Assembly: GCA_026636295.1 (NCBI GenBank)
Contig: CP089453.1
Span: 310,001 to 374,000 of the forward strand
Reading direction: 5' to 3'
Source of the DNA: Medakamo hakoo
Lineage: Eukaryota > Chlorophyta > Trebouxiophyceae > Coccomyxaceae
DNA: 64,000 nt
Made by a program: the position numbers and the translations under genes. Under the pieces are notes generated by a model. The model was not told the DNA's origin. It did no database searches and worked only from the letters and a program-made list of their open reading frames with translations. The stretch's first letter is position 1, and the number at the start of each line of letters is the position of its first letter. Positions 3,113 to 50,000 of the stretch are shown here, one piece after another.

Positions 3113-4767
3113 ATGGCGACCGACTCCCAGGACACGGACGGCAACACGGGCTCGCCGCTCTCCCTGACAGTGCGGCTGACCGCGGGCGGCGCGAGCTTTG
3201 GCGTCGACGCCTTTGCCGGCTGGACCGTCGCCCGCCTGAAGACGGCCGTCGAAGCCGCGGCTGGGGAGGGGGTCGCGCCCGCTGACGGCCAACGCCTGAT
3301 TTATAAAGGGCGGGTGCTGAAGGACGGCGACACGCTGGATGGTGAGGGCAAGGAAAAAAAAACGCGCGCGCCAGAACCAACCCGCACGCCGCGCCGCGTG
3401 CTCTTTTCCGCCCCTCCGCCCCGCTCCCGCCCTCCTCACACACAACACGCGCCCGCACACTCAAAACAGACGTCACGCCCGGCGCGACTTTGCACCTCGT
3501 CGTCTCCAAACGCCCGGCGGCGGCGGCCGCGACCGCGGGCGGTGGGACCGCTCCAGCGGCGGCGGCTCCACCCGGCGCCGCCGGCGGCGTGCCCGGCCTC
3601 TTTGGCGGCCCGGGCGGCAGCGGCCAGCCCTCGGCCTCCGAACTGGCCGCGTTCGCCCGGTCTCCCATGGCCCGCGCCCTACTCGACAACCCGGAAGCCC
3701 TGGCCGCCCTCGTCGCCGCCTCCCCGCCCGCGGCCGCGCTGGCCCGCTCCAACCCGGAGCTCGCGGCCGCGCTGCGCGACCCGGCGACGCTGCGCGCGGC
3801 CCTGGCCGCGGCCCTGGACCCGACCTCCGCCGCCCGCGCCCACGACCGGGCTGTGGCCAACTTGGAAGCGCTGCCCGGCGGCGCGGGCTTCCAGGCCCTG
3901 CGGTCGATGCACGAAGCGTTGGGGGCCGCTTACGAGGCGACGGACGGCGCGGCCGCCGCCGGCTCAGCTTCGTCTGGCGCGACGCAAGCCCAGGCGGCGG
4001 CGCTGGCGTCCATGCTGGCGGGTGCGGGCGCGTCGGCGGGCATTGGCGGCAGTGGGTCTGGCGGCGGCGCCCCCACCACGCCGAACGCGGAGGCCCTGCC
4101 CAACCCGTGGGCGCCTCCGCCGCCTCCACCGCCGCCCGCGGCCGCCGCGGGCGCCACCCCTGCCGGCGGCGGGGCCGGCACCACCCCTCCCGTCCCTCCT
4201 CTCCCGCCCGGCCTGGCTGAAGCCCTGGGCGCCCCACCCGGCGGCGCGCCCGACCTCGGCTCCATCCTGGGCCAGGGCGCGGGCCCGGCCGGCATTGCCG
4301 ACCCGGCCGCGCGGCAGGCCATGGCCCGCCTGATGAGCAGCCCGGAGATGGTGCGGAGCATGCTCGCCAGCGCCCACCCGTCCATGCGGGCCGCCGTGGA
4401 AGCCAACCCGGGCCTGATGGACGCGCTGACCAACCCGGAGATGGTGGCCCGCATGTTGGAACCCGGCGCGCTGCAAGCGGCGGCGGCCATGCTGGGCCGG
4501 AGCGGCGGCGGGCTGCCCGGTGCCGCACCGCCCGGCGGCGGCGGCATGGACCTGTCGGCGCTCGCGGCCGCCCTGGGAGACGCCGGCGGCCCCTTTCCGC
4601 CGCCGGCCCGCCCGGCCGACCCGGAGGCCGCGTACGCCCCCCAACTGGAACAAATGGAGGCGATGGGCTTTGCGGCGACGCACGGGCGCGGGGCGTGCGT
4701 GGAAGCCCTGGTGGCGACGGGCGGGAATGTGGCGGCTGCGGTGGATCGCCTGCTGGGCGGTGGGTGA
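3113..4767 (+). CDS. DSK2: Ubiquilin / DSK2 proteasome shuttle factor
   Basis: Exons 3113-3341 and 3470-4767 (GTGAGG...AAACAG, phase 1) give 508 residues. The order is a ubiquitin-like domain (residues about 17-90, with QRLIYKGRVLKDGDTL and, across the splice, TLHLVVSKRP), two STI1-type blocks (around PELAAALRDPATLRAAL and around AVEANPGLMDALTNPEMVARM), and a C-terminal UBA domain (LEQMEAMGFAATHGRGACVEA...VAAAVDRLLGGG). This is the full ubiquilin architecture; human ubiquilins are only slightly longer. It should bind ubiquitinated clients through the UBA and hand them to the proteasome through the UBL domain. The linkers are Ala/Pro/Gly-rich. ATG 3113 sits in a CACAATGGCG context. The splice falls inside the UBL fold, so the exon-exon join is strongly supported by the protein alignment. 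Confidence 0.93.
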
Positions 4768-5156
4768 GGGTAGAGAATAAGGGGAGGAGGAGGAGGAGGA
4801 GGAGGAGAGAGCGCTGCGTTGCGTTGCTGTGTGTTACTTTTAGACGACGGACAAAAAAAGGATGGATGGAGGTTGGTCAGGGACGGAGAGGCGCGCCCCC
4901 GCGCCGGCGCGGCGCTCTCACTCTCCATTTGCCTAGGCCGCGCGCGTGAATCCCTCACGCTCTCACGCTGCCTCGGCCCACACACGCACCTGCCGCCGTC
5001 AGCGAGGCCGTCCGCAGCTGACGAGCCGCGTGGTTGTTGCTGCGCGCGCGTGCTTGAGCCTCCCCGCCCGCGCCCCGAAACGCAGCCGAGAGAAGCTGCT
5101 CGCCCGTTAGACTTTCGCACCGTCCCGTTTTTCCAAGCCACCAGACCGTCCGCACC
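4768..5156. other. Intergenic, DSK2 to SnRK2
   Basis: Begins with a (GGA)n run at about 4783-4806, then mixed GC-rich sequence that should hold the SnRK2 promoter and 5' UTR. No reading frame with family features is visible. Confidence 0.5.
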
Positions 5157-6795
5157 ATGGACTTTTCGAACGAGCAGTATGAGATGGTGAGTCTGAGGCA
5201 TCCGGACGTGAAGGAGGGGCGGGTGGGGTGGGGAGGGCCGGGCGTGGCGGAGGGGCAATGGGGCCCGTCGCGACCGGGCGCCGCCCGCCCGACCTCTCAG
5301 TTGACTGGGGAAGCACACTCAAGCGCCGCGCCCACCCTCCACGCAGATCAAGGACATCGGGTCCGGCAATTTCGGCGTGGCCAAGCTGATGAAGGACAAG
5401 GCCACCGGCGAGATGGTGGCCGTCAAGTTCATCGAGCGCGGCGAAAAGGTGAGGGCGGGAGGCGCGGCGGGTTGAGGTTGGCCAGCGAGGCCGAAACAGT
5501 TCCGGGCGTGGAGGAGAAGATTGGGGCGAGGCCGCCGGCGAGGGCGCGGGTGTCGCACGGCCCGTCCGCGCCGCCCAGCACCGTCTGTGAGGCGGGACGC
5601 CGCCGGCTGACCGGGCGGCGGGCTGTGGGACGTGTGCTCCTGCCAACACGACGCCAACCGGCTTTGACGCCGGCGCCGGCGAAGGGGCACGCCGCCGCGC
5701 GCGCGCGGTCGCTGCCCCCCACACCTCGCTCGACCTCCGCGGTCGCTGCACCCCCCACCGCGCCCTCGCTCGACCTCCCCTCCCCCACCCCCTCTCCACC
5801 CACACACACACACCTCTCCACCACCACACCCACACACACGCGCGCCCACCCAGATCGACAAAAACGTGGAGCGCGAGCTCATCAACCACCGCGCCCTGCG
5901 CCACCCCAACATCGTCGCCTTCAAGGGCGTCTTCTCCACGCCGTCCCACCTGGGCATCGTCATGGAGTACGCGGCGGGGGGCGAGCTGTTCGACCGCATC
6001 GTGCGCGCGGGGCGCTTCAACGAGGACGAGGCCCGCTTCTTCTTTCAGCAGCTGGTGTGTGGCGTCGCCTACTGCCACGCGGAGGGCGTGTGCCACCGCG
6101 ACCTGAAACTCGAAAACACGCTCCTGGACGGGTCACCCGCGCCCCGCCTGAAGATCTGCGATTTCGGGTACTCCAAGTCCGCGCTCTTCGACTCGCAGCC
6201 CAAGTCCACGGTCGGCACGCCCGCCTACATCGCGCCCGAAGTCCTGTCCCGCAAGCAGTACGATGGCGAGGTGGCGGACGTCTGGTCGTGCGGCGTGACG
6301 CTCTACGTCATGCTCGTGGGCGCGTACCCGTTTGAGGACCCGGCCGACCCGCGCAACTTCCGCAAGACCATCCAGCGCATCATGGGCGTGAAGTACGCCT
6401 TCCCGCCGGGGCTGCACCTGTCCCGCGACTGCGTCGACCTCATCTCCCGCATCTTTGTCGGGTCGCCGGCGTCCCGCCTGACGATCGCGGGCATCAAAGC
6501 CCACCCCTGGTTCAAGACCAACCTGCCGGCCGAGCTGGCCGACGGCGGGGCGGCCGCGATGGCGGCCATGCCGCCCTGCGCGCAGAGCGTGGAGGAGGTG
6601 AAGCGCATCGTCGCGGAAGCCCGCGTCCCCGGGCCCGGCGGCCGGACTGGAAATGGCGGCGGTGGAGCCAGCGGCGGCGGCGGCGCGGCGGTCCACCCGG
6701 CGCACGCCGACTCGGCGCTCGGCTCCATGGCCGCCGACTTCAACGAGGAGGACTACTTGGGTGACGCCCTGGACGGCGACGAGTTCCTGGACTGA
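5157..6795 (+). CDS. SnRK2: SnRK2 (OST1/SAPK-type) serine/threonine kinase
   Basis: Exons 5157-5186 (30 bases), 5347-5448 and 5854-6795 give 357 residues. The kinase domain is almost textbook SnRK2: [12 protein letters not shown] glycine loop, [11 protein letters not shown] (Lys about 37), [28 protein letters not shown] (catalytic Asp about 127), [10 protein letters not shown] (DFG Asp about 147), the activation loop [18 protein letters not shown] with the Ser equivalent to OST1 Ser175, and [20 protein letters not shown]. The C-terminal tail ends in the acidic segment [15 protein letters not shown], like the acidic patches of land-plant SnRK2s that bind PP2C phosphatases and ABA-independent partners. 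The likely role is osmotic or desiccation stress signalling in cytosol and nucleus. The first exon codes only ten residues, and without it the glycine loop would lack its leader. All splice phases are 0. Confidence 0.95.
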
Positions 6796-8179: not shown

Positions 8180-9937
8180 TCAAGCGAACGCCGGCACGTC
8201 CTCCTCGCTCTCTCCTTCCTCAACCCCGCCCTTGCCTTCCTCCGCGGCCGCCTTGGCCGCCGCCGCCTGCTGCGCGAACAGCCAGGGCGCCATGGAGGCG
8301 GCCAAGCGGGCAAGGGACTCGGCGTCGGGCAAGCCGCCGCCAGCGCCGGCGCCGCCGTCCTCGTCCGGCGCCCGCCCCGACCCGCTCGGGCCCATGGCCG
8401 AGGAAACACCGAAGCCGCGCGCACGGTACGACGCCGCGTGCTCGGTCGCCGGGCGCAGCGTTTCCAGGACGTGCGCGAAGTCTTTGGCCGCCAGCGGCCG
8501 TGGGCCGGCCGGCCGGGTGGGAGGGGTGGCGGGCGCGGCGGGCCCGCCCCCACCGCTACTCCCGCCACGGCGGCCGCCACTCCCGTCCCCGTTCGCACGC
8601 CCGGCGTACGCCGCCTCATCACACGCCGCCATGTACTCGTGCACGGGCACGGCCGCCGCCTGCGAGCACAGCTCAAACAGGTCGGACCCGGCAAAGCCGC
8701 GGGCCTGGGCCGCGACCGCGCGCAGGAGCGGGCCGCCGCCCGCGCGCGCTTCGGCCGCCAGGGCCGGGTCCACGCCGCCGCCGCCGCCCTCGCGCACGTG
8801 GCGCCGCAGGATCAGGGCCAGGATCTTCTCCCGCTGCTCCGCGTCCGGGCGCGGCACCTCGTACTGGACGGAGAAGCGGCGCAGGACGGCGTCGTCCAGC
8901 GCGTACGGCCGGTTGGTCGCGGCCAGCACCATCACCTGGGCCTGCGCGTCCGTCAGGAAGCCGTCCCACAGCTGCATGAACTCCGTCTTCATGGCCGTCA
9001 CCGCCTCGTGCTCCTGGTCCCGGCGGGCGCCCAGCAGGGCGTCCACCTCGTCGATGAAGATGATGCTCGGCTGCAGCTTGTACGCCAGCGTGAAGACGGC
9101 CGTGACCAGCTTGTTGGTGTCGCCAAACCACTTGGACTGCAGGGTGGACGCCCGGATGTTGATGAAGGCGGCCCCCGCCTCGGCCGCCAGGGCTTTGGCC
9201 AGCATGGTCTTGCCCGTCCCCGGCGGGCCGTACAGCAGCACGCCCTTGGCCTGGCGCAGCAGCGACGACGAAAACAGGCCTGGCCGCTCCAGCGGGGCGA
9301 TGACCTTGGAGTACAGCGCGTCCTTGACGGCGGCCAGGCCGCCGATGTCGTCCAGGCGCACGTCCAGGGCGGCCGGGTTGATGACGTCCAGGGCGATCGT
9401 GTCTTCGTAGCTGTTGGTGTCGACGGACCGCCCCAGGCGCCGCGCGATCTCTTTTTTCTTGGCTTTGGCCGCTTTTTTGGCGCCCTGCGCGGATGGGAGG
9501 GGCGGGGGGGCGGAGGGGGAGAGCGGGATGAGCGCAATGTGAGAGGCGGGTGGGAGGCGGGTTGGGGTGGCGGCGGCGCGGGTGTCCCCCCTTCCCCGGG
9601 CGGAGAGGGCATGGGATGGAAGAGGCGGGGCAGCAGGCCGGGTGGGTGTCCCGAGGCGCGCGGCGCGGTGGCAGAGCGCTCCCTCTCCCCCCCTCCTCCC
9701 AACCCCACTCACCGCGCCCGGGTCGATCTGGCTGAGCGACCACTTCAGTAGGAGGCCGGACCCGAGCAGGGACGCGCCCAGGAGCAGGAGCTGCATTTGT
9801 GTGGGGGAGCGACGGGGCGTGAGAAGAAGAGGGCCTGGGCCGATGCGCGTTTCGCTGTCTCGACGCGGCGCACACAAAACAAAACCCACCTCGGCGACGA
9901 TGCCGCGCTGCTGCGAGTTGCCCGACATCTGGCCCAT
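8180..9937 (-). CDS. MSP1: Msp1/ATAD1-type AAA ATPase (membrane-protein dislocase)
   Basis: Minus-strand exons 9890-9937, 9713-9790 and 8180-9484 give 476 residues. A short leader ([10 protein letters not shown]) is followed by a hydrophobic segment, [19 protein letters not shown], as the single N-terminal membrane anchor. The AAA core follows the Msp1 pattern closely: [20 protein letters not shown], Walker [36 protein letters not shown], Walker [30 protein letters not shown], and [15 protein letters not shown] with the arginine finger region. Msp1 pulls mislocalised tail-anchored proteins out of the mitochondrial outer membrane and peroxisomes. The C-terminal end (about 130 residues rich in Gly/Ala/Glu) is longer than in yeast or animals. 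The anchor is itself encoded by a separate 78-base exon. Confidence 0.93.
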
Positions 9938-10154: not shown

Positions 10155-13100
10155 ATGGCCGACCCCTTCAACCCCGGCGGCCCGGACGACGCGATGAACT
10201 CGGACGACGAAATGGAGGCCCAGCTCATGGCCCAGGCCATCGCGGCATCCCTGGCGGTGGGTTTTTCCCCTCTTTCGCTGTGGCATTCGTTTTCCGCGAG
10301 ACGCGCTGTCTCCGTCCGCCCGCCCCTGGCGCCGCCCTGCCACCGCCCACGCTCCTCGCGAGCGGCAGGGCCATGCCATGCCCTGCCCGCGCCGAGGGGT
10401 GGGAGTGGGGCGCGGAGGGCTGGAGCGGTGGCACGAGCGCAGCGTTCTCCTTTTCTCTTCCGCGCCGCGCGCCTCCCTCACCTCTCGTCTCCATCCCTCA
10501 ACCCACACAGACCGCCGCGGCCGAGGCCGCGCCCATGGACTCGGACGAGCCGCCCCCTCCCGGCCCCGTCGACGTGGAGGGCGAGCCGACTGCGCCTGCT
10601 CCACCGCCGCCCGCCGTCGACCCGGCCGTCCTGGAGAATTTACTGGCGGCGACGGCCGGCGCGGGTGGCGTCGACGCCGCGGCCCTGGCCGCGGCGCTCT
10701 CGGCTGCTGCGGCCGGCGGCGGCGGCGGTGGCCCGGCCGGCCCGGCCCAGGCCCAGGCCGCGGCTCTGGCTGCGGCCTTAGCTGCGGCTGCCGCGCCCGC
10801 GGCGGGCGGCGTGCCGCCGCCGCCGCCACGCCCGGCCGCCGCTCGGGCGAAACCAAGGCCGCCGCCGGGCCCCGTGCCTGGGTGGGCGGCCGCGGTCGCG
10901 GGCGGCGGCCCCCTCCCGCCCGCGGGCGGCGCCGCCCCCCCGCCGCCCCCGCCGCCGCCCACCGCGGTGCCGCCGGGTTCGGAAACGACCCTGGCCGCGT
11001 CTCTGACGGACATCTTTGGCGTGGGCGTGCGCGTCGTCGGCGGTGGGGGTGGCGGCGGCGGCGGCCCGCCCACGGCCATCCCCCTGACCCTGGAGGGCGG
11101 CGCGCTCACCCCGGCCGCCCTGGACGCCGCCCTCGGCCTGGCCACCTCGCCCGCCCGCCTGCGAGGTAAACCCCGCCTGCCTGCGCTCGCCGCCATCGCG
11201 GCCCGAGCGAGTGGTGCGGGGGACGCGGCCCTGGGCGCGGCCGTCGCTGCGTCCGCTGCCCGCACCGCGCTGGCCTCGCTGTCGTCCGCGGCCGCCGCGG
11301 CCGACGACGACCTCTTCTTCGCCGGCGGGTCGGGGCCCGAAGCCCTCGCCGCCTCCTTGGCTGACGGCACGCTACCGCCCGGCTTCATGGAGTCCATGGC
11401 CGCCGCGGCGGAGGGGTCGGACGCCGGGACCAAGGCCCTGGCGAGGGGCGTGGGCGGCGTGCTGCGCGCGGTCGGCGGGCAGTCGCCCACCGCCATCGCG
11501 GCCGACCTGCCCGACGCGTGGGCGGCCCGGCTGCGCGCCGCCGACATCGCCCTCCGTCCCATCCCATGCCAGCGCGCGCTCGCTGCTGCTTTGCTGGCCG
11601 AAGCCGCGGCCGCGCCCGCCCTGCCCGACCCGCACGGCCCCGCGTTCGAAAAGGCGTCGGTCCTCACGCCCCTCCTGTCCGTCGCCACCTTCCCTGACGT
11701 GCCCGCCACGCTGCGCGCGGGTGGGGCCGACCCGTCATCCCGCGGCGCGGGCGCGGGCGCCCGCACGGCGTCCCCCGCCCGCGGGCTGTACGAGGCCATC
11801 CGGTCGTACCCGGCGTGCCGGTACGGTGAGGTGGAAGCCGCGTCGCGGCAGGTGGGCGCCGTCCTGCGTTCGGTCGGCGGCGCGGGCGCGGGCATCGCCG
11901 ACCGCATCGCCCGCCTGAAAGACGCGGCGCCGCCGGGCGTGGGGCGGGAAGCCGTGCTGGCCTGGCTGGCCGCGGCGGCGGGCGCGTGCGCGTCGCGGGC
12001 GGTGGGCGGCGACAAGGGCGCGCTGGACCCCGCGGCCGTCACTGGTGCCGCGTCCGACGCGTTCGCCCTGGGCGCCGCCGGGCTGGCCCTGCGCCTGTGC
12101 CGGCCTTTCCTGGCGGGCGGCGAGCGCTGGCTGCCCAAGCTGGGCGGCGGCGAGTACTACGCGACCGCGGTCGGGAAAGCCCGGGCGCCGGGGTTGGGCC
12201 GGCAGCCGACGCTGGCCGGGCGCGGCGCGGCCGTCACCGTGGAGGACGACGACGACGATGACGACGAGGAAGTCGGCGGCAGCGCTCCCGCGCCGCCCAG
12301 ACCGCCTTCCGCCGCGTCGTCGCCGCGCCCGTACCTGTCCCCGGCCGCCCCCGGGTCCGACCCGTCCGCGCCTGGCTTTGTGGCCGAGTGCTTCCACGCG
12401 GCCGCCCGCCTGGTCCACGCCGGCCTCATGCCCGCCGTCAACCGTTTTTCGGAGGGGTGGGAACGCATGGCCCGGGCGCGGGCCGACGGGGGCGGCGGCG
12501 GCGGCGGCGCCGCCGCCGACGTCGGCCTGGAAGAAGCCCTGTTCCGGGACACGGGCCTGGCCCACCTCCTGGAACCGGAGCTGGCGTCCGACGCGACCGG
12601 GTTTGCCGTCCTGACCGTCTCCTGGATCGCGCACCTGCTGGCCGCTGGCGGCCCGCCCGCCATTGCGGCCGTCCCGGAGTCCGCCCTGCGCGACGCCGCC
12701 GCCTGGGTCGGGTTTTGCGTGCGGTGCGGCGGCGCGGACATCGTGGGCGGCTGCGACGTCGGGTCCCTGGTCGGCGGCGTGTCGGCCTTCCTGCGCGCCG
12801 ACGGCGTCGCCTCCCGCTCGCCGCTCGCCGCGGCCGCCTGCGTGGAAATGCTGCAAGCCATGCTGGCGCCCCAACTGGACCCGCGCCGCATCATCGGCGG
12901 GGAGGCCGGCGCCGTCCTCGGCCCGTCCGCCATGAGCCCGGGCGAGCGCGCGCTCGTCGCGACCGTCCTCGCGACCGGCGCCGCGCAGGCCGCCCTCATC
13001 CCGGCCCTCATGCGCGCGCACGCGGGCGCCGACGTCGTCGTGGGCCTGGACGTCGACAAGGACCGGTTCGACAAGTTCGGCTTCCGCACCCAGGTCGACG

Positions 13101-14740
13101 CCCTACTGATGGAGCTGTGGAACGACGGCGCGTGCCTGGCGTCGACCGCACGCCTCGCGGCCGCGGGCGGCGACGACGCCGCCGCCTTTGACGCCTACGT
13201 CGGCGCGGTGCTGAATTCGCTGATCTACTTGTTGGACGACTGCCTGGTCCGCCTGCAAGCCATGGCGGACGTGGAGGCGGCCAAAGAGAAGGACGGCGGC
13301 GCGGCGTGGGCCGCGCTCCCCGCGCGCGAACGCGCGGCCAAGGAAGCGTTTTTGGCCGGCGAGGCCGGGACGACGCGCGGTTTCATGGGCATGGCCCGCC
13401 GCTGCCTGGCCGTCCTGGCCCGGCTGGCGGGCGAGCCGTCCATCGTCGCCGCGTCCTTTGGCGCGCGGGAGGAACTGGCGTCCCAGGCCGCCCACGCCGT
13501 CTCGGCGTTTGTGAACGCCGTCGCCGGGTGCGACCCCGAGACGGGCGGGTCGCGCCGGGCGGTCGCCATCGCCCGGCCCGAACGCTTCCGGTACGACCCG
13601 CCGTCCCTGCTGGCGTCCATCGTCGCCATTGCCTTGCGCATCGACCGGGCCATGGTGGGCGGTGGCGGGGCTGGGCTGGCGCCGCTGCTGGCGCGGGAGG
13701 CAGAATTCGACGCGGGGCCCGCCCGCCGCGCCGCGGCCGTCGTGGGCGGCGCCGGCGATTTCGGCGCCCGCACCGCGTTTGAGGCCCTGGTCGACCGCGC
13801 GGTGTCGGCCCGCGGCGGCGGTGGCGGGTCCGGCGGCGCGCCGGCCGCGTCCGCCACCCCGCCCGCCCTGACCCTGCCGCCGTCCGTCCCGCCGCCGCCG
13901 GCGGACCTGGACGCCGCGTACCGGCAGGCGCTCGGCCCACTCGCCTTTGGCGAGTGGGACTCGGAGGCCTCCCCCGCCGCCTTTTCCCGCGTCCTGGCGG
14001 CCCAATCGCTGCCTCCCGGCGCGGCCCTGCCCCGCAAAGCCGCCAAGCGCATTGCCAAGGAGCTGCGGGAGCTCGGCGCGGAGGGCGGCCTCCCCCTGTC
14101 CCCCGGCGCGTCCATCTTTGTGCGCGCCGACCCCGACCGGGCCGACCGCCTGCGCGCGCTGGTCACGGGCCCGGAGGGGACGCCGTACGCGGGCGGCTGC
14201 TTCGTCTTCGACCTGGTCTTCCCGCCGGCCTACCCGGACGTCCCGCCCGTCATGCTGCTGGCCACGACGGGCGGCGGGCGCGCCCGCTTCAACCCAAACC
14301 TGTACGCGGACGGCAAGGTGTGCCTGTCGCTGCTGGGCACGTGGCACGGGACGGACGAGTCGGAGAAGTGGTCGCCGTCCGACGCCAACGTGTGGCGGGT
14401 CCTGGTCTCCATTCAGGGCATGATCCTCGTCGACGACCCGTACTTCAACGAGCCGGGCGCCGACGCGGTGCGCGGGACGCCGGAAGGCCGGCAGCAGGCC
14501 GCGCGGTACAACGCGAAACTGGCCGCCAACGTCCTGCGTTACGCCATGGCCGCCCACCTGGACGCTCCACCGCCCGGCTTTGAAGACGTCATCGCCGCCC
14601 ACTTCCGCACGCTGCGCCACAAGGTGTTGGAGGGCGTGGCGGCCGCGGTGGCCGCGGCGGAGGGCGCGGGCGATGGCGAAGCGGCCGGGCGGCTGCGCGA
14701 GGAGGCGGCCGGGCTGGTGGACCGGCTGGCGAAATTGTGA
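10155..14740 (+). CDS. UIM + UFD2-core + BIRC6-type UBC fusion (E4-E2 ubiquitin enzyme)
   Basis: Exons 10155-10256 and 10511-14740 encode 1443 residues. Exon 1 (34 residues) ends in DDEMEAQLMAQAIAASLA, a good ubiquitin-interacting motif. A long Ala/Pro/Gly linker follows (about 35-230). Residues about 250-1085 carry UFD2 (E4) core signatures: FVAECFHAAARLVHAGLMPA, ALIPALMRAHAG, DKFGFRTQVDALLMELW, NSLIYLLDDCLVRLQAM, and ARPERFRYDPPSLLASIVAI. Where UFD2 has its U-box, this protein has an E2 domain (about 1205-1390) of the BIRC6 type: LVTGPEGTPYAGGCFVFDL, RFNPNLYADGKVCLSLLGTW with the catalytic Cys at about 1305, then WRVLVSIQGMILVDDPYFNE. No U-box is visible. I infer an enzyme that binds ubiquitin chains and extends them with its own E2. 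The single long second exon has no internal stop, so the two domains are in one frame. Confidence 0.9.
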
Positions 14741-15125
14741 GAGAGGTGGGAGGGGTGCGGTGAATGAGGGTGAGGGCGTGCGTGTGCGTGCTTGCTTTTC
14801 TTGTTCTGCGTGTGCGTGTGGAATGGGACGGGAGAGAGCGACGACGGGTTAAAAAAAAAAAAAAAAGAGAGGGGTGGAGGGTGGGTCGGGGACAGAGCTG
14901 TGTTTTTTTGCAACCCGCCCGCCGCCCAAGCTATCGGTCTCTCACCCTGCACCGCCCATGGTCTGTGTTCTCTCTCTTGTGCGTGCACGGGGACGGGCAG
15001 AGTCGATTTTTTTGCGTTTTTGTTTCGTTCAATACGTTTTCAACCTTGCATCTCCCAACCACGCTCTCGCCCGCTGGGACGGGCCCGGCCTCGCTCCCCG
15101 CTCGACCGGCCCGCGTCCCAGCGCC
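14741..15125. other. Convergent intergenic gap, UFD2-UBC gene to SRP40-like gene
   Basis: Contains an A-run at about 14850-14866 and T-runs near 15007-15013, consistent with two 3' ends facing each other. No reading frame of note. Confidence 0.5.
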
Positions 15126-15996
15126 TCAGTCGGAATCAAACTTGTACGAGCACCGCGCGGCAGGGTCAATGGCGCCACCCCGGTAACTCCCCCGCTTCTT
15201 CTTCGTCTTCTCGTGCCTGAAGTCTTTCCCACGCACCGCGCCCAGGACCGCCTGCGCTTTGGCGCCCCACCCGCTCGCTCCGAACGTCGCTTCGTACGAG
15301 TTGTCCCACGCGCCTTTTTTATCCAGCCATTCCTCGTCTTTGACGCGCTGGAAGGCGCGGGCGGCCGTGCCGACAGGGCGGTCGGAGGGAGTGGCCGTCG
15401 TGCCGTCGTCGCCTTGCTCGGCGGCGGCAGCAGGCGTGGACGGCGCCTCGGCGGGTGGCTCGGCCTCCTTGCCTTTTTTCTTGTCCTTCTTCTTCTTCTT
15501 CTTGGGCGGCTCCTCTTCCTCCGTCGCCGCCGCAGGCATCGGCGTGGGATCCGAATCTGGGGCCGCTTCAGCCTCAGCTGCCGCGCGTTTGGCTTTTTTG
15601 TCCTTTTTCTTCTTCTTCTTGTCGGCGCCGTCGGCCGCAGCCGGCTGCGCATCGGCCGCCGCCGCCTCTTCTTCTCCGCCGCCCTCCGCCTCCTCCGCCA
15701 CTTCCGCCGCCTTTTCCTCTTCTTCAAAGGATGCTAGGTGAGCGGCGGCTTCGGCAACGTCGGCACGTAAGAGAGCCATGTCTTCCTCGGACAGGGGCTG
15801 TGTTTTTTTTTTCGTTGCAGTCGGAGCGTGAGTTCCTAGTAAAACGCCACCGACCGCAATGTTACGCCCGCCCACGGCGACGCCTTACCTTGCCCTCCTC
15901 ACGCGCGAGCTTTTTCTGCTTCTTCGCTGCTTTCTTGGCCTTGCGGGCGGCTTTGGCCGCGGCCTTGCGGGCGGCTTTCTGTTCTTTGGTCACCAT
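15126..15996 (-). CDS. SRP40/NOLC1 (Nopp140) C-terminal-domain nucleolar protein
   Basis: Minus-strand exons 15889-15996 and 15126-15797 (phase 0; acceptor A-run then CACAG) give 259 residues. The N-terminus is a Lys/Ala-rich basic segment. The middle alternates acidic (EEEEK, EEAEG) and basic (KKKKKKDKK) runs, as in Nopp140 Ser/acidic-basic repeats, though with few serines. The last 75 residues are the SRP40_C domain: AFQRVKDEEWLDKKGAWDNS, ATFGASGWGAKAQAVLGAV, GKDFRHEKTKKKRGSYRGG and KFDSD at the very end. The Nopp140 family works in the nucleolus and Cajal bodies as a chaperone of snoRNPs and of RNA polymerase I factors. The protein is much shorter than animal NOLC1, nearer the yeast length. 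Confidence 0.88.
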
Positions 15997-16146: not shown

Positions 16147-19100
16147 TCACTTTCCGCCCACTTTCGCTTTGACCCCATCCCGCAACGCTTCCGCCGCCGC
16201 CTTGGCGTCCGCCAGCAGCATGGCCGTGTTTTCCTTCGTGAACAGCGGGTTCTCCGCGCCCGCGTACCCGGAGCCCAGGCTCCGCTTGATCACGACGACG
16301 TGCTTGGCCTTCCACACCTCAATGACAGGCATGCCGGCCAGGACGGAGTCCGGGTCTTCCACGGCGGACGAGTTGACGGTGTCGTTGGCGCCCAGCACGA
16401 TGGCCAGGTCCGTCTTGCCGTCGCGCAGGTCGTCGTTGGCCTCGTCCATTTCGATGACGGCGTCGTAGCCGACGCCCGCTTCGGCCAGCAGGACGTTGAG
16501 CTGGCCCGGCAGCCGCCCCGCGACGGGGTGGATGCCAAACCGCACGCGCGCCCCCGCCGCCGTCAAGTCCTTGCACAGCTCCGCGATCGCATACTGCGCG
16601 CCCGCGACGGCCAGGCCGTAGCCGGGGACGATGAGGACGTCGCGGGCGGTGGACAGGGCGTCGACGACGGAGGAGGTGTCGGTGATGGTGGGCTCCGGGC
16701 CTGTGGTGGTGGTGGGGGCGAGAAAGGCGTGAGAGAGGGGAGGGGGGGGGGGCGACCCGCCCCCCGCCAGCGCGCACGCGGGCCGTGACCTCTCCCCGCC
16801 CCTTCCGACGCACCGTCGTCCGCCTTGGCTGTCGACACCGCTTTCGTCGCGTACCCGCCAAAAATCACGTTGGCGATCGACCGGTTCATCGCCCGGCACA
16901 TGATGTACGTCAGCACGGACCCGGACGCGGCAATCAGGGCGCCGACGGACGTGCACATGTCGTTGGACAGGAGGGCGCCTTCGACGGCCAGGGCCACGCC
17001 CGAGTACGCGTTGAGGACGGTGATGACGACGGGCACGTCCGCGCCGCCGATGGACGCGGTGGTGTGCCAGCCGAGCAAGCCGGCCGAGCCGGCGGTGGCG
17101 GCGAGGAGGGCGGCGCCCGTCCCCACGTCGCCCGCCGCGACGGCGCCGGGCAGCAGCGCGCCCGCGCCGACCGTCGCGCCCAGCAGGCCCAGGTTTATGG
17201 CCGTCTTGCCGGGCAGGTTGAGGGGCTTGGAAGACAGCCAGCCGGCCAGTTTGCCGTAGGCGGCGACGGAGCCCGTCGCGGTGATGGCGCCGACCGCGGT
17301 GCCCGCCCAGGCGGCGGCCAAGTGCGCTGTGCCGGCGTCCGGGTGCGTGAGGAAGGCCGCCACACTCGTCGCCGCCGCGCTCAGGCCGACGAGCGAGTGA
17401 AAGGCGGCCACCATTTCGGGCAGGGACGTCACGGACACCCTGCGGGCGAGCGCGGACCCGGCCAGCCCGCCGACGCCCAGCGCCGTCGCGGCCTGGACAA
17501 AGGTGCCCGGGTCGGTGCCGGCCGCCGCCATCGCTCCGGCCGTCGTCGCCAGGCCGGCCGCCACGCCGCCCACGCCCAGCGCGTTGCCGATGCGGGCCGT
17601 GTCCTGGCGGGACAGGGACGCCAGAGCGCCGATGCAGAGCGCGGCGGCGCCCAGGAACCCCGCCGCGTGCGCGCCGGCCAGGGCGTCGGGCGGCAGGCCA
17701 GCGGCGTGGGCCGCGAGCACGCCGGCCGAAATGGCGCCACCGGGCAGCGCCGCATACAGCCCGGCGTGGTCGTCCGGGTCGCCCGGGCGCTTGAACATGT
17801 CCAGCATGCGCTTGCTGACGGTGAAGCCGCCCGCGATGTTGACCGCGGACGCGGCGACGGACGCGGCGGCCAGGGCTTGGGCGGTGTTTGATGGGAGGAA
17901 GCCTCCGCCCGACAGGAGGAGGCCGCCGATGGCCGTCGTCCCCGAAATGGCGTTGGTCACAGACATGAGGGGCGCGTGCAGGGCGGGCGCCACGCCCCAG
18001 ACGGTCTGGTAACCCGCGGCCGTCGCCAGCAGCGCTTTCGCCAGCGTGGGCCCCGGCGCGGCGGCGCCGACCGCCACGAGCGCGGCCGTGCCCGCGGCGG
18101 TGGCGCCGGCCGCGCGCAAAGCAGCGGCCTTGCGCGCTTCGGGCGTGGACGCGGCCGCCGCTGCCACTTCGGCGTGCGAAGGTTTGGGCGGGGCTGGGGC
18201 GGGCGGCGGCGGCAGGGCGGGCGCGGGCCAGGTCAGCGCGCCCTCGCGCAACACCAGCGCGCCGCGGACCGCCTGGTCGCCGTCGTCCACGTTCCAGTAG
18301 CCTTTGGCCCCGCTGGTGAAGGGTCCCACGCTCAGGATGAACTTGGAGACGTTGTTGGAGAAGAGCGTCGAGGCCTGGGCGGCCATGCGGGAGGGCAGGT
18401 CGGTGTAACCTGCGGGTGGGGGGAGGGGGGTGAGGGGGCGGGTGAAAAAAGGGAGGAGTGAAAGGGGGGACGGAGCGCAGGGCGGCTGGGCAGAAGCCTC
18501 CGTCCGTCCGTCCACCCGCACGCACGCACGCACGCACCGATGATCGTCACGCCATTGGCCGTCGTCGTCGCTTCGCCTGGGACCGTCCCCTCGACGTTTC
18601 CTCCCGCTTCAGCAGCGAGGTCGACGACGACCGACCCGGGCCGCATCAGGTCGAGCGCTTTCCGGGTGATGAGCTTGGGCGCGTCCTGGCCCGGGACGAG
18701 CGCCGTGGTGATGATGATGTCCGTGCTCGGCGCCAGGCTCTCAAACAGCGCCTGCTCACGGGCGAGCAGGCCTGCCGACGCCGCTTTGGCGTAGCCGCCC
18801 GCGCCGGCGCCGGACTCGCCCTGCATGATCTCGTCGCCGCCGACGAAGACGGCGCCCACGGATTTGGCCTGCTCGGCCACGGCTTCACGCGTGTCGAACA
18901 GCCGCACAGTGCCGGCGCCCAGGCCGCGCGCGGCCGTCGCGGCCGCCAGCCCGGCGACGCCGCCGCCGACAATCAACAGGTTGCCGGGCGGCGTCTTGCC
19001 CGCGGCCGTGATCTGGCCGGAGATGAGGCGGCCGTACGCGTGGACGGCTTCAATGACGGCGCGGTGGCCCGCGATGTTGGCCTGGGAGGACAGCGTGTCG

Positions 19101-19800
19101 AAGGCCTGGGCCCGGGAGAGGGTGCGCGGAATGCAGTCGAGGCCCAGCGCGGTCGCGTGGCGGGCCGCGAGCGCGTCGAGCAGCGCTTTGTTCGTCGCGG
19201 GTTGGAGGTAGGACACGAGCGTGGCCCGGTCTTTGAGCATCGCCACCTCCTCCAAGGAGGGCGGCCGGATCTTGACGACCAAATCGGCGCCGGCGAGCGT
19301 GGCGGGCGCGTCGGGCGCGACGGCCGCGCCCGAAGCTTTGTACTCAGCGTCGGCCGCGCGCGCGCCGGCGCCGGCGCCCGACTGGACGAGGACGCGGCCG
19401 AAACCCGCGTCGACCAGGGCTTTCACGCCCGCGGGTGTGAGGGCGACGCGGCGTTCGCCAGGGGCGGTCTCGGCCGGGATGGCTGTGGAGTGGAGTGGGG
19501 GTGGGGGGGGGTGTGGGGGTGGTTGGATGGCACCGCGCAAAGGCATGGCTCCGTTCCGACGCCCGTTTTCGTAGGCTTCCGGTCCTCGCCCACACACGCG
19601 ACACCCTCCATTGGGTACACAAGCTCACCGACTGTCATTGCAGCGTACGGCGTGCCTTTCGGCAGCGGTGTCGCGACCTCAGACTTGAGCCGACGCAAGG
19701 CGGCCGACAGAATGGGTCCGGATTTGGCCGCCGCCGCCGCGCTGCCCAGGCTGGAGAGGCCATGGCCTCCCACGCCTGTGATGAGAACCCGAGCCAACAT
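16147..19800 (-). CDS. NNT: Proton-translocating NAD(P)+ transhydrogenase, alpha-beta fused
   Basis: Minus-strand exons 19629-19800, 18538-19482, 16814-18409 and 16147-16700, all joined in phase 1, give 1088 residues, nearly the length of animal NNT. An Ala/Ser/Arg-rich leader (1-50) suggests a mitochondrial or plastid presequence. Domain I (NAD(H)-binding, PntA-like) has [60 protein letters not shown] and [20 protein letters not shown]. The membrane domain spans the third exon, with many Ala/Gly/Leu helices and [14 protein letters not shown] where PntA passes into PntB. Domain III (NADP(H)-binding) has [36 protein letters not shown] and [14 protein letters not shown]. The domain order is dI-dII-dIII as in animals, not the reversed order of apicomplexan parasites. 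It would use the proton gradient to make NADPH. Confidence 0.95.
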
Positions 19801-31323: not shown

Positions 31324-34300
31324 TCAACCCTTTGCAACCACGGCTTTCCCACCGCCACACGCGGCCGCCAACCCCGCCGCCCACGCCGCGACCCGCTGTG
31401 GAGCGCTGCCGTCCATCCAGGTCGTCGCCCACAGGCCGGCTTCACCCACTAGACCAGCCGCGGACAGGACAGCGGCCGCGGCGGCGGGCCCGCCGGGGCC
31501 GCCGCCCACGAGCGCGGCGGCCAGCGCGGCCACGCCCGGCGGCGGGCCGTCGCAGCCGGGCCCACCCCAGGCCGCGTCACGCACGGAGGACAGCGCCGCG
31601 ACGGCCGCGGCGGCGTCGCCGGCCCGGCCAGCGCGCGCCGCGCGGAGCAGCGCCGTGGCCAGCTCTCCAGGCGGCAGCGACGGCGCGGCCGCCAGCGCGA
31701 CGGAGAGCGCGGCCGCGGTCACGCCCGCCTCACCCGCCGCCCACGCCGCGCCCGCCAAGGCCAGCGCGTCCGACGCGACTGCGGCGGCAGCGGCCGACGA
31801 CAAAGAAGAAGAGCCCCGCTCACCACCCTGCTGTTTTTTCAGGGCGGCCAGCCCCGCGTCCGCCGCGGCCGCGACGGGCGCGTCCCACTCGACCGCGGGC
31901 GCCAGCGCGCCCGAATCGCCGCCGGAGTCGGTGGAATACGCGCCGCCGCCCGCGCCGGCCGGGCCTGCGGCCAAGCCGGTGCCTAGACGACCGGGGCCCA
32001 AGGCAGCGGCGGCGGCAGGAACGGACGGAGACGCGGCGGCCGGGCCGGCCGCGGCGCCTTCTTCAAAGGCGAGGGGCGGCAGCGCGTCGGGCGGTCCGAG
32101 GAGGCCCGCACCACCGCTCCCACCGCCGCCTGCGGCCTCCTCCAGGCTCCGGGCCGCGGCGGCCAACGCGCCGGCCGCGCGTTCTAGGGCAGCGCGGGCC
32201 GCGGGCGGGACGCCTGGCAAGCCCGCGCCCGCCGCAGCGCCGGCCGACCCGGCGGCAGCAGCAAAAAAGGCGGCGGCGTCGCGGTGGGCGTGGCGGGCGA
32301 GGCCGCGCCCGGCGACGGCCGCCGCCGCCGACACGTCGCCCGCGCCCGCCAAGCTGCGCGCCCGGGCGCCGGCGTGGGCGCCCAAGGGCAAGGGCGTGGG
32401 GCGCAAAGCCGCGTCCACCACCCACAGCGCGCCGTCGGACGCGCCGGCCAGCGCCAGCGCGCCCGGCGGGCGGGCGGCCGGCGGCGGGAAGGCCAGATAC
32501 GCGCCGCCCGCGGCGGGGGGAGGGGCGCCGGGGCCGCCCGGCAGCGCGGCGAGCGACGCCAGGGCCACGACCTCCACCCGCGGGTCGGCCGCGCCTTGCA
32601 AGCCCGCAATGAAGAGGACGGTCAGGCCACACGGAGAGAGCAGGGCGAGGCCTTGCGCGTCCCAGGCGCCGGCCGTCACGCCCGCCACGGCCGGGCGGGC
32701 AAAGGGGGTGAGCTCTCCACCGCTGTCGCCGCCGCCGCCGCCCTCCCGGCGCAGGAGCAGGACGCCGTCCGGGAAGGCTAGGGCCACGCCCGCCCCGCCG
32801 GGCGCCCACCCGATCCAGGACGGCGCAGCGCCGGGGAAGGCGGGCGCCGGGTTTGCGGCCGCCGCGCTCGCCGGGTCGGCCCACGGCAAGAAGTGCAGCC
32901 CGCCGCCCGCCGTCACGACGCCGAGCATGGACCCACCGTGCAGGCGGACGGCGGGCCCGTGGCCGGTCGGGCCCACGCCCGTGGCGACGAGGAGTGCGCC
33001 GCCCTCTCCACCGCCGCCGCCGTCGGAGGTCGGTGAGAAGTCGACCAAGTCGACCGATGCGGGCGGCGGCGGGCCGGCAGACCGGCCGTCGGGGCGGCCG
33101 CCGCCACGGCTGGCCCGCCGTCCTTGGGCAGACGGCGCAGACGGCGCAGCCGGCGCCGCGGGCGTCAGGACAGCCAGGCGCGGCCCGCTCGCCGCCCAGG
33201 CCAGGTCCAGGGCGTGGCCCGACGCGGCGTGCGCCCAGGGCACCGACCCGAGCGGGGCCGCATCAGCGTCGGGCGACCCGCCCGGGCGCTCGTACACAGC
33301 AAACCGCGCGGCTGCAGGCCACAGGACGGCGACCCACCGCCCGCACGCGGACGCCAAGACGCGGGTGGGACCGGCGTGGTCGGGCAGGTCGGCCGCGAGA
33401 ATGCCGCGAGAGGACAGGTCGGCCGTCATGGCCCGGGCGGTGGACGGCGGCGCGCGGCCGCCGCCGGCGCCACCCCCGCCGCCGCCCGCCGCGTCCTCCC
33501 GCCACCCGGCCCGGTACTCGGCGCCCCACAGCCGCCCGCGGACGGCGGAGACGAAGGCGCAACCACCACGGCCGCGGCCCGGTGGCACGCGGGCGACGGG
33601 CGGGGCCGGCGCGGGCGCGGCGGCTTCCACGGTGGCGGGCGGGTCGCCGCCGCTCGCACCCCCACCGCCACCTTTGAGCAGCAGCACGCCCGCGTTGCCG
33701 CCGACCGCCGCGACGTCGCCGCGCAGGGGGTGGGCCGCCACCGCGTACAATTTAGGCAGGCGTTTGGACCCGTGCGGCAAGACGGCCCGCAGGTCGGGCG
33801 GCGGCGGCAGGGCGCGGGCGGCGGGCGGCGGCACCGCGCCGGGGCGGGGCGGGCACGGCAGGGGCGAGCCGACCGCCCCAGGCACCTCCCACGCCCGGGC
33901 CGGCCACGACCAGACGCCGGGCGCTTCGCCGGAGATGAAAAGGAGCGCGTCGGCGGCGCCCGGGGCGCAGCCTGCCCGGGCGGTGGCGAGGCCAGAGGGC
34001 GCCAGGCCGCCGCCCGCGCCGGCAGAGGCCGCCGCTCCAGGCGGCGGCGGCGGCAGCGGCCGCGCGCGCGCGACTTGGCGCCCGGACCCAATCTCCCACA
34101 GGGCGACAGTGCCGTCCGCGCCGGCCGTGGCCAAGCGCAGCGCGGGCGCGGGAGGGGCGGACGGCTGGGGAGGCGGCCCGCCGCCCGGCCCGGCTTTTGG
34201 CGGAGGGTCGGGCACGCAGACGAGGGCGCACGCCGCCACTCCGCCCGCGTGCGCCTGGAACGTGGCGGCGGGAGGGAGTTCGGGCAAGCCGCCCGCGCCC

Positions 34301-35553
34301 GCCGCGATGGCGGCGGCGGCGGCGGAGGCGGAGGCGGAGGAGCCGGGCGCGCCTGAGGCCGCAGCTTCGACAACGGCCGCCGCAGCTGCCGCCGCCGCCG
34401 ACGGCTGCCAAACCGCCACGGACCCGTCGGCGGCTGTGGTGATGAGCGCGTCCCCGCCACCACCGTCCGGCGCGGCGAGGGCGACGGCGGACGTGACGGC
34501 GCCTTTGTGCCCGCCGCCCAGGCGCGCCAATACGGCGCCCGTGTCGGGGGAGACTAAGAAAACGGCACCGCCCGCCGTGCCGACGGCCAGGGTCGGGGAC
34601 AGAGGCAGGGCCGCAGCCGGCGGGTCGCCACTGCCACCACCGCCTCCGGCGGGAGCGGCCTTGCCGTGCGCGTCGGCGGAAAAGCGGGCCAGCAGCGCCA
34701 GCGCGCTGGGCTGCCGGGCGTCCAAACTCCCGCGCGGCAGCTCCCAGCCGCGACCCTCCCCACTCCCGCCCACGTCCCGGCACAGGACTTTTGTGTCGCA
34801 GGCGGCGATGAGGAAGCGGCGGCCGTTGGACAGGGCGGGTGCGGCCGCGGCGGCGGCGAAAGGTGGAGGGCCCCTCGCAGCGGACGCCGCTGCCGCCGCG
34901 GCACTCCCACGCGGCACGGCGCGCGCCGCGCCGCGCGTCGCCTGGTCGGCCAGGGACCAGGCCAGGGTTTCGGCGTCGACCCAGGCGAGGGCACGGACGG
35001 CGCCGGGTGCGGCGGCCGAGGCGCGGGCGGCAGACGCGAGGGCGGCCGCTCGCGCGGCAGCGGCAGCCCGGCCGCGCGGCGGGTAGGCGGTGGCATTGGA
35101 GCCGGCTTCGCCCGCGGCCGCTTCAGCGGCTCGAGCCAGCAGGGCGTCGCACGCGGCGCGTTCGGCGGCCGCGCCGACGGGCTCTTCCAGGAGGGTCTGT
35201 TTTGATGTGGTTGATGGGAGTGGGATGGTTGAAGCGTGGGGGATGGGTCCAGTCGGTTTCTCTTTTTTGGCGTCGCCGTCTCCCCCGTCCCTCTCCGCTG
35301 CTCACCGTCCCTGTCTCCCAGTCCCACAGGGTGAGTGTGCCGGCCACGTCCGCGAAGGCGAGCCAGGGTAGGGTGGGGTGGAAAGCCAGGGCCTTGACCT
35401 GTGTGTTTTTGTTTGGGAGAGGCAACAAAAAAGCAATGGGGTGACGGAAATGGAGACGTTGGAGGCGGTGGATGGATGCGGTGTCCATCGCTCGACCAAG
35501 CGGACCTTGTTGGCCGTCGGCCGCAGGGCCGCGGGCTGGAGGGACTCGGCCAT
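31324..35553 (-). CDS. TWD40-1: TWD40-1-like WD40/solenoid protein of the TSET (TPLATE) complex
   Basis: Minus-strand exons 35506-35553 (16 residues), 35306-35398 (31 residues) and 31324-35196, all phase 0, give 1337 residues. The spliced N-terminus reads ALRPTANK then VKALAFHPTLPWLAFADVAG and TLTLWDWETG, matching the land-plant TWD40-1 opening in which Arg-Pro-Ser/Thr-Asn-Asp-Lys is followed by a His-Pro-Thr-x-Pro-Trp WD repeat. Further anchors: GRRFLIAACDTKVLCRDV, GHKGAVTSAVALAAPDGGGG, ALRLATAGADGTVALWEIGS, and PKLYAVAAHPLRGDVAAVGG. Residues beyond about 900 are helical, Ala-rich and should form the alpha-solenoid half. In plants this protein is part of the eight-subunit TPLATE endocytic complex at the plasma membrane. 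Gly/Ala insertions pad the loops. The assignment rests on remembered family motifs, not a search. Confidence 0.78.
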
Positions 35554-47053: not shown

Positions 47054-50000
47054 CTAGGCGCCTTGGCGCAGTCGGGAAATGGAGTGGAACTCCTCCTCCA
47101 GGCAATCCATGAGCGAGTTGCTGCAGCGCAGGATGGCCGTGTCGAATTTTTTCCGCACGTTGCGAAACTCGTCGTACGCCTCCCGCTCCCGATCCATGTC
47201 CATGCCCACCCTGCCCTCGGTCCTTTCCACCACGCGCTCCGCCTGGCGGATGCGGCCGTCCAGCGTGCGCATGATCTTGTTGTCTAAGAAACTAAAGGGG
47301 CGTCTGTGAACCGGTCGCACCCATTTTTTTTCCTCATCCATCATCATGCTGGGCGTCACGCCCAGCCACACGGCGTCCTTCTGGGCGTACTCGTCGGCGT
47401 GCTCGTCGGCGCGCTCGTCGGCGTGCTCGTCAGCGCGCTCGTCCGCGGTGCGGCGGGGACCGCACCGCAGCGCGCCCGCGCTCGTGCCGATCTTGATCAT
47501 CACTTGGATGAACAAGCCGGGGGGGTTGCAGTCCGTGATGGTGAACAGGCGGCCGTTGTTTTCGGGCCGCAGGCCCGGGAATGGTCCATCCTTTGACCGC
47601 ATGTAAGCCAGGAGCGCGCGCGCCGCAACGTTGGGGAATCCCATGCCCGTGAAGAAGGCGTTGTACTGGCCAAACAGGCCGGGCCCGGGCGTCACACCAT
47701 CCGGCGAGTGGTTCATCGCCTCTATGTAGTCCACCTGGATGAAGTAGTTGAAGTCTGCCTCGCTCTCGAAGAAGAAGCAGACTTTGGGCTGGATTCCTTC
47801 GGGCGGATGTTCCTCAGGCTCGGACTCCATTCCTTCGGGCTGACTTCCCTCAGGCTCGGACTCCGTTCCTTCGGACAGATTTTCCTCAGGCTTTTTAGGA
47901 AAAGCGAGCCGGAAATCGACTTTCTCGTTGACGCGCGAGTCGCCCTGTATCTCGTACGGCTGGTCTGGGGTCATGGGCTTGCCGTGTTTGCCGATTTTGA
48001 TGTACGTGGAGTAAAACTTGCCCCTGGATGCCGGGAAGAAACTCAGGTCAGCCCAGACGACTGTGCGGTCTCCAGCCAGCAGGTTGGAGTACGCGGCGAC
48101 GAGGCCAGGGTCTCGGCGGCGGGCAGCATCGCTCGGGCTTTCAATGGCGCGTTGCAGCCACGGGTTGGCGGAGTAGTCGCCCGTGCGCCGCGCGTACTTG
48201 CACCACCGCAAAAGGCCGTACACGTCATCGATGGCCCGGTTTGCCTCATCGGGCGTCGGAGACACGCCCGTGTCCGGGCGCGTCCATTCCAAACAATAGT
48301 ACGCCATGCGGAAGCGGTCCTTGATGCCGTACTCTACGTTGCTCCGGAGCAGGCTCATGACGAACCGTGCCCAGTGCAGGCGGTTCATCGTGGCGCCGAT
48401 GCAGCGCAGCCGGGTCGTGCCGCCGGCTTCGTTTGGTTGCTTCAGCCTGACGCGCCCGTCGTCGCCGACCACGGTCGCGCCGGCATCAAATGGTGATTTG
48501 CAGACGACGACACCTCGCGTCAAAGCGCCCGGGCTGGACATGGCCTTCGAAACCTGCGTGACGAGGTCAATCAGGGCGGCGGTGCGGAGGTCATCCACCG
48601 GCGGCGAGGCCCGTTCCTGCGTCGTGTCCAGGTTGCCAAACAAGCGGCCGCCTGCTTCATCCGCGGCCGCGGCGGCGGCAGCGGCGGCGTCAGGGTTGGC
48701 TGCAGCAGCGGCGGCAGCAGGGTCAACCCCGGCGGCGGCGGCGTCGGCGGCGGCAGCGACGGCGGCGGCGGCTTCGTCGCCGCCAGAGGCGGCGCCGCCG
48801 CCCTCTCCCGCCAGCCCGTCGTCCTCTCCAGCCTCAGCGTCTTCTTCTACCAAATCGCACTCGGTCGCAATGAGCTCGTCCAGCATGTCGGCCTGCTCTT
48901 TACTGTCGTCAGAGGCTTGGGCGGCCGCCTGGGCAAAGCGGAAGCGAGGGGAGGCGGACCAGGCGATGATCGGCGGCGGGTCGTCCAGCGGCCACACAGG
49001 GCGCCGGTTGCTGGCACCGCCCAGGCCCCTCACTTTGGCGACCAGGGCGTGGCCGACGGAGGGGATGTCTTCCAGGGCGAGCAGGGCGGCCGCCACGTTG
49101 GCCAGGGCCAGCCGCTGTGGGCGTCCCCGCTGCTGCGGCGGTGGCAGCTGCAACCAATCGCACAGATCCTCAAAGCTGGGCCCGCCGACGCCGCCCGGGC
49201 AGCCCAGTTGGACGGCCAGGGCTCTCACGTCCAGGACGATGGTCCCGGCGGGCATGTCGTGGTCCATCTGGGCGCTGTAGTCCCGGCTCAGTTGCTCCGG
49301 GTCCGGCACACCGTACGCCAGAAAAATGGGAGCTGGTTTCGGGCCGCGCGGGCCGGCGACCGCGAGCGCGGCCGCCAAGTCTGGCGTCGCCAGCGGGAAC
49401 ATGGACGCCGCCAGGCCCGTGGCGGTTTGTGCCAGGTCGGTCGCACAGTCGGACATGCTGGTGAGCGCACCGATCAGCTTGTGTTGGGTGGGCACGTCGG
49501 CCCAGGGCGAGCGCCGGTCGGGCGCTCTGGGCGCGGCCAGGGCCGCGGCCACGGCCTCCACAACGCGCTTTTTGGCTTCGAAGTAAGTGTGCCCGGCCGC
49601 AAAGGAGGCCTGGTCCACGGCCACGCCAGGCAGGGCAGGCAACTCACCCGCGACGGCGCCTGCAGCACGGCGCATGACGCCGTCCAGGTCGGCCTTCCGG
49701 AGCGCGCCCGCCAGGTCGTCGAGCTTGGGCTCGCGGCCCGACGTCGCTTCACGCAAGCATTTGAGCAGATCCGGCCACGCGTCGACGACAGCGTTATCCA
49801 GCGCATGCGCAGCCGCGGCCAACGCGGCAATGGCTTCGGCGTTGGGGTGGGCGTCCAAGGCCTCGCGCAGCATGCGGTGACTGGAGGGGGGTGGGTGGGT
49901 GGAAAATGTGTGTGGTTGAGGGAGTCCGTGAGTGCTGCACGTCCTTGTTTCTTTTGGTCTCGACCGCCCCCCCCCCCCCCCCTACCGCACACTAAACGTC

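Follow-up and report, generated by a model that had tools for sequence, protein, structure and literature searches.

UFD2 is the founding E4 (ubiquitin chain-elongation factor). Yeast Ufd2 recognizes K29-linked chains through two N-terminal loops and adds K48-linked ubiquitin (PMC5303827). Its K29-chain loops and its Rad23 site are located in the N-terminal region, its U-box is the head that binds the ubiquitin-conjugating enzyme (E2), and Ufd2 lacking the U-box does not rescue the growth of ufd2-deletion cells on oleic acid or at acid pH (PMC5303827). Among the class IV E2s, an LB loop is said to be well conserved across UBE2Z, UBE2O, and BIRC6, with Cys188 and Trp195 in UBE2Z and Trp4645 as the BIRC6 counterpart of the latter, and UBA6 seemingly loads BIRC6 with greater efficiency than UBA1 does (PMC4705383). 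Here we describe a gene of the green alga Medakamo hakoo that draws on both groups. It lies in a stretch of 64,000 nucleotides (contig CP089453.1, positions 310,001 to 374,000), which we call the window. As far as the DNA can be read, one frame holds a UFD2 core and then an E2 with intact catalytic motifs, in that order, with no detectable U-box. Coordinates are window positions on the + strand unless marked, and the window has a GC content of 73.3%. Residues are numbered in the full-length product of 1443 residues; the exon-2 protein is numbered separately.

UFD2 core, open frame, and E2 module

An earlier reading of the DNA letters (the original prediction) had proposed a single open frame, a UFD2 (E4) core within it, and, at the position of the U-box, a complete UBC domain of the BIRC6/UBE2O type with its catalytic Cys, and all three proposals were confirmed. 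Only one of the six frames is stop-free across 10511-14740 (+); the remaining two forward frames are interrupted by 12 and 8 stops, and the three reverse frames by 5, 6, and 16. The composition is that of coding sequence throughout, as GC at third codon positions (GC3) lies between 0.84 and 0.98 in 14 of 14 300-base blocks from 10511 to 14710 and is 0.64 in the next block, nearly all of which is downstream.

The Ufd2P_core score, chosen beforehand as the point on which the core would stand or fall, is 90.2 bits (E 1.5e-25) against a Pfam cut-off of 20.4 and is spread over two stretches. The better of these aligns exon-2 residues 684-1045 with positions 239-578 of the 628-position profile, and the N-terminal 690 amino acids scanned alone gave 15.6 bits to profile positions 65-186, below the cut-off and with the order kept. 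Seven composition controls were made; the four submitted to Pfam, all derived from the UFD2 region (one global shuffle, two local shuffles, and one reversal), returned no family at E≤10. Local alignment to yeast Ufd2 scored 95, compared with a mean of 36.7 (standard deviation 4.1, maximum 54) for 300 shuffles, and yeast residues 635-813 align with residues 887-1078 at 43 identities in 177 aligned positions. When the protein was compared piecewise with yeast Ufd2, residues 881-1110 and residues 501-720 were each matched by none of 400 shuffles. Detectable UFD2 similarity stops at about residue 1079. Residues 1041-1175 (10 of 400 shuffles as good) were considered as the end of the core and rejected, because the aligned part, 1057-1078, falls inside the known match and nothing beyond 1079 is supported.

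Structure prediction added little to the profile result. Two single-sequence AlphaFold2 models were poor (mean pLDDT 42.8 and 47.5), and a Foldseek search with either gave no match at E≤0.001. The first model had 191 matches at E≤10, headed by two to 9kht with E values of 0.084 and 0.097 and TM no higher than 0.13; for the second, with 226 matches, 2qiz came first (E 0.29) and 3m62 fourth (E 0.53), with TM no higher than 0.27. That Ufd2 came first in both rankings of these predicted models is weak support for the assignment. We regard the UFD2 core as secure at the level of sequence, and the likeness of the N-terminal part to yeast Ufd2 as only suggestive.

Between the last detectable UFD2 similarity and the linker lie 56 residues, roughly the length that separates yeast residue 813 from the U-box, given that PDB matches to the U-box begin between positions 859 and 880 of yeast Ufd2. 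Pfam reported no U-box at E≤10 in the UFD2-E2 protein, in a search whose HMMER filters discard most very weak matches; alignment of residues 1061-1444 to the yeast U-box region did no better than chance (265 of 400 shuffles equalled or exceeded it); and the 73-residue stretch before and into the E2 had an unrelated complex I subunit as its sole match (E 0.43). NCBIfam assigned no family to the protein.

Pfam scores the E2 with UQ_con at 71 bits (E 1e-19, cut-off 27). Compared with PDB sequences, the module is closest to BIRC6 (3ceg, 203.8 bits), followed by UBE2O (138.4) and UBE2Z (101.1), a ranking taken from the best 60 of 266 distinct sequences at E≤0.01. It is 45% identical to the BIRC6 segment, with FNPNLY, the catalytic Cys, and a Trp at Cys+7 conserved, and the alignment runs into the C-terminal extension (FEDVIAAHF). 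The position of this Trp reproduces the spacing of Cys188 and Trp195 in UBE2Z. An N-terminal E2 extension shared with UBE2O (7yw1, aligned from exon-2 residue 1141) was also considered and is not relied on here.

The proposed E2-E4 and its alternatives

Judged by its sequence, the gene probably encodes a self-contained E2-E4, in which a UFD2 scaffold carries a tethered class IV (BIRC6-type) E2. In such a protein, the UFD2-type helical scaffold would recognize substrates already bearing ubiquitin, probably in the Cdc48/Rad23 pathway. The ubiquitin-activating enzyme (E1) would charge the tethered E2 directly, and this E2 would deliver ubiquitin to the chains held by the scaffold, replacing the Ubc4-like E2 that docks on the U-box. 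Transfer in cis or between two molecules, as well as the type of linkage, we infer rather than observe. Because the yeast U-box is the E2-binding head and is needed for rescue, an E2 at its position would be a sensible substitute. A wider proposal, which we hold tentatively and would place a little short of probable, is that an algal lineage swapped the UFD2 U-box for a covalently attached BIRC6-type E2, yielding an E2-E4 in a single polypeptide, for which E1, ubiquitin, and substrate would suffice and which would alter the E1/E2 route feeding the Cdc48-UFD2 degradation pathway.

Several observations weigh against the self-contained E2-E4. The N-terminal region, where the K29-chain loops and the Rad23 site of yeast Ufd2 lie, is only weakly alignable to yeast (22 of 400 shuffles did as well as residues 181-512 when these were compared with yeast 1-310). 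Residues 701-890 fare worse against yeast (76 of 400 shuffles did as well), even though most of this stretch falls within the Pfam match. When the UFD2 half alone was searched against PDB with phmmer, yeast Ufd2 accounted for 4 of 5 matches at E≤1, with an E value of 0.2 that is not significant. The U-box also activates the E2~ubiquitin bond, a function that tethering an E2 would not by itself necessarily supply. Moreover, the E2 might act on its own protein or on other substrates, and the junction between core and E2 could be an artifact of the assembly or of the gene model.

The apparently poor conservation of the N-terminal chain-binding region would also suit a protein in which the UFD2 core serves chiefly for targeting (to Cdc48, Rad23, and the proteasome) and the E2 works independently of a ubiquitin ligase (E3), as BIRC6 and UBE2O do, on substrates of its own and without extending chains. 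The E2 is indeed closest to BIRC6 and UBE2O among the best 60 of 266 PDB sequences, and the PDB molecule names of these two read "Dual E2 ubiquitin-conjugating enzyme/E3 ubiquitin-protein ligase" and "(E3-independent) E2," respectively. However, within the UFD2 half it is the C-terminal core, on the side of the former U-box, that most resembles yeast Ufd2, and this suggests that scaffold and catalytic unit have kept their relative geometry. We consider a pure targeting role unlikely, although it is the main rival.

Two other explanations would remove the fusion or its activity. With a GC content of 73%, long open frames come easily in this window: among 2000 dinucleotide-Markov sequences of equal length, the longest open run had a median of 451 codons, a 99th percentile of 892, and a maximum of 1408, and antisense frames of more than 500 codons are present. 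The long frame could thus be fortuitous, joining a UFD2 gene without an end to a separate E2 gene, either as two adjacent genes or as an assembly chimera. Yet GC3 is 0.92 in both 300-base blocks across the junction of core and E2 (13511-14110), and the top-scoring segment found in the window by codon usage runs unbroken from 10514 to 14737, a result that is partly circular because 11510-14737 of the gene itself served as training data. Simple pattern scans found neither a GTRRGT donor nor a long pyrimidine-tract acceptor in the open reading frame (ORF), and neither TGTAA nor AATAAA in 13400-15200 of the + strand, which speaks against a split before 13,900; the weaker GTGGGC sites at 13655 and 13742 are without an acceptor in 13600-14060. 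A chance joining of this kind therefore seems improbable. Because the sequence examined is this window alone, and because the UFD2 half diverges from its yeast counterpart (43/177 identical), the gene might instead be a divergent pseudo-enzyme or a decaying paralogue, with an ordinary U-box UFD2 elsewhere in the genome. The catalytic residues of the E2 are intact, however, as is the frame with its high GC3, and we find such decay very improbable.

How the distant chain-binding tail and the U-box head of Ufd2 cooperate was still posed as a question in 2017 (PMC5303827). A structure from 2025 (9kht), described as Ufd2/Ubc4-Ub with K29-linked triUb in a dimeric conformation, probably bears on this cooperation. 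If the algal protein is a self-contained E2-E4, its E2 would be fixed at the head and the geometry would become directly testable, with E2 loading, reach, and transfer in cis or in trans all contained in one chain. It would also mean that an E3/E4 scaffold can exchange its docking domain for the enzyme itself, that BIRC6-type E2s are movable between scaffolds, and that one protein could do work that normally takes two.

First exon, feature coordinates, and neighboring genes

The original prediction had also placed a ubiquitin-interacting motif (UIM) in exon 1, and this part of it did not hold. The Pfam UIM profile had no match at E≤10 in exon 1 (34 amino acids) or in joined N-termini of 49 and 99 amino acids, whereas a yeast Vps27 UIM peptide, used as a control with the same tool, scored 24.6 bits. 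A UIM usually has at least two acidic residues among the five preceding Phi. Across the whole Ala-rich protein there are 4 instances of Phi-xx-Ala-xxx-Ser, compared with 3.55 expected from shuffles, and 0 (0.30 expected) once this acidic requirement is added. A looser form (hydrophobics after Ala and Ser, at least four acids in nine) was found once against 0.0012 expected, having been defined only after the sequence had been inspected. The N-terminal segment may thus be called UIM-like at best, and even this depends on an unproven intron.

Exon 1 is in a different frame from exon 2, and the two are joined only by removing the inferred intron, whose T fraction of 0.20 compares with 0.084-0.168 in 17 ORF blocks of 250 bases. 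Directly after the putative first exon stands GTGGGTTTT, which is common to this gene and to the divergently oriented AAA-ATPase gene next to it. Because the frame of exon 2 stays open upstream as far as 9752, translation could possibly start without exon 1. The features of the gene are collected in the table.

Table. Features of the UFD2-E2 gene, in window positions
Feature	Position	Strand	Basis or remark
Putative exon 1, 34 codons, MADPF...AASLA; UIM-like but Pfam-negative segment	10155..10256	+	read from sequence
Inferred intron, GTGGGT...CACACAG	10257..10510	+	sequence pattern, T fraction
Exon 2, single open frame, 1409 codons plus stop	10511..14740	+	ORF listing, coding composition
Ala/Gly/Pro-rich N-terminal stretch, end set by eye	10511..11062	+	translation
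FEKASVLTPLLSVA, aligned to yeast Ufd2 211-224 FERKTILGPILSLS	11645..11686	+	in order; 22/400 shuffles as good, not significant alone
N-terminal part of Ufd2P_core, profile 65-186	11942..12454	+	15.6 bits, below cut-off
Main part of Ufd2P_core, profile 239-578 of 628	12560..13645	+	Pfam; yeast Ufd2 alignment
56 residues between end of UFD2 similarity and linker	13646..13813	+	inference; without detectable sequence similarity
Gly/Pro-rich linker, about residues 1136-1166, borders by eye	13814..13906	+	about where yeast Ufd2 has its U-box
BIRC6-type E2 module with N- and C-terminal extensions, start by eye; UQ_con 14120-14455	13907..14737	+	Pfam, PDB matches
Catalytic cysteine codon, full-length Cys1305, in FNPNLYADGKVCLSLLGTWHG	14321..14323	+	BIRC6 alignment

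The AAA-ATPase gene occupies 8228-9937 (-) and scores 128.5 bits with Pfam AAA; it is presumably Msp1/ATAD1-like. It is oriented divergently to the UFD2-E2 gene, has its putative start at 9937, and is separated by 217 bases, counted from one putative start codon to the other; a shared promoter for two quality-control genes is possible. A Ubiquilin/Dsk2-like gene is found at 3113-4758 (+), about 5.4 kb upstream of exon 1 (UBQLN1 domain, 64.9 bits; UBA, 24.4 bits; ubiquitin-like start by eye). In yeast, Dsk2 binds branched chains made by Ufd2 (PMC5303827). The window begins with a raffinose synthase or Sip1 fragment at 6-1469, and pieces of an NAD(P) transhydrogenase lie at 16156-19483 (-), with PNTB (229 bits) and PNTB_4TM (91.7 bits) at 16803-18407 and the rest assigned by eye. 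The kinase at 5854-6792 (+) is of the SnRK2 type, scoring 418 bits to SAPK10 and up to 418 to SRK2E structures, both of which we take to be plant SnRK2 kinases, whereas the top chain outside this group reached 190 bits (best 60 of 347 matches). SnRK2-type kinases are a green-lineage marker, and this one, together with the raffinose synthase or Sip1 fragment, suggests that the window belongs to a nuclear genome of that lineage. A UCH_1 domain protein at 61029-63899 (+; 114.8 bits) is, we assume, PAN2-like. Coding-like frames of 652-1261 codons at 31408-35190 (-), 47075-49873 (-), 51783-53738 (+), and 56986-59787 (-) had no Pfam match at E≤0.001, and ARAGORN found no tRNA in the window.

Comparison with described systems

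Among the matches listed for titles and abstract openings in the open-access literature, no fusion of a UFD2 core with an E2 is described. A survey covering the domain architectures of the ubiquitin system never uses the word Ufd2 in its main text (PMC4327156), and in a survey of apicomplexans their UFD2 is presented as a U-box protein (PMC2408969). Algal proteomes could well contain a precedent that has not been annotated. Scans for related loci in prokaryotic and viral contig collections gave nothing, and tblastn in phages had no match, which is uninformative about algae.

Compared with the UFD2/UBE4 family (yeast Ufd2; PDB 2qiz, 3m62, 9khs, and 9kht), the algal protein is alike in its Ufd2P_core and in the order of its segments, but it has a linker and a BIRC6-type E2 instead of a detectable U-box, as well as a long Ala/Gly/Pro-rich N-terminal extension. 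BIRC6 (BRUCE/Apollon) resembles it in the E2 domain, the catalytic motifs, and the C-terminal extension. In contrast to BIRC6, the algal protein has no BIR domain in a Pfam scan at E≤10, is attached to a UFD2 core, and comprises 1443 residues rather than the approximately 4,860-4,900 of five deposited long BIRC6 chains. UBE2O and UBE2Z, as class IV E2s, share the E2 core and the LB loop at lower scores (138 and 101 bits), and the source text on them mentions no UFD2 core. Without a U-box the protein is, strictly speaking, no UFD2, and without a BIR domain it is no BIRC6; we conclude that it is a hybrid of a UFD2 core and a BIRC6-type E2, an architecture that is well supported by the translated sequence.

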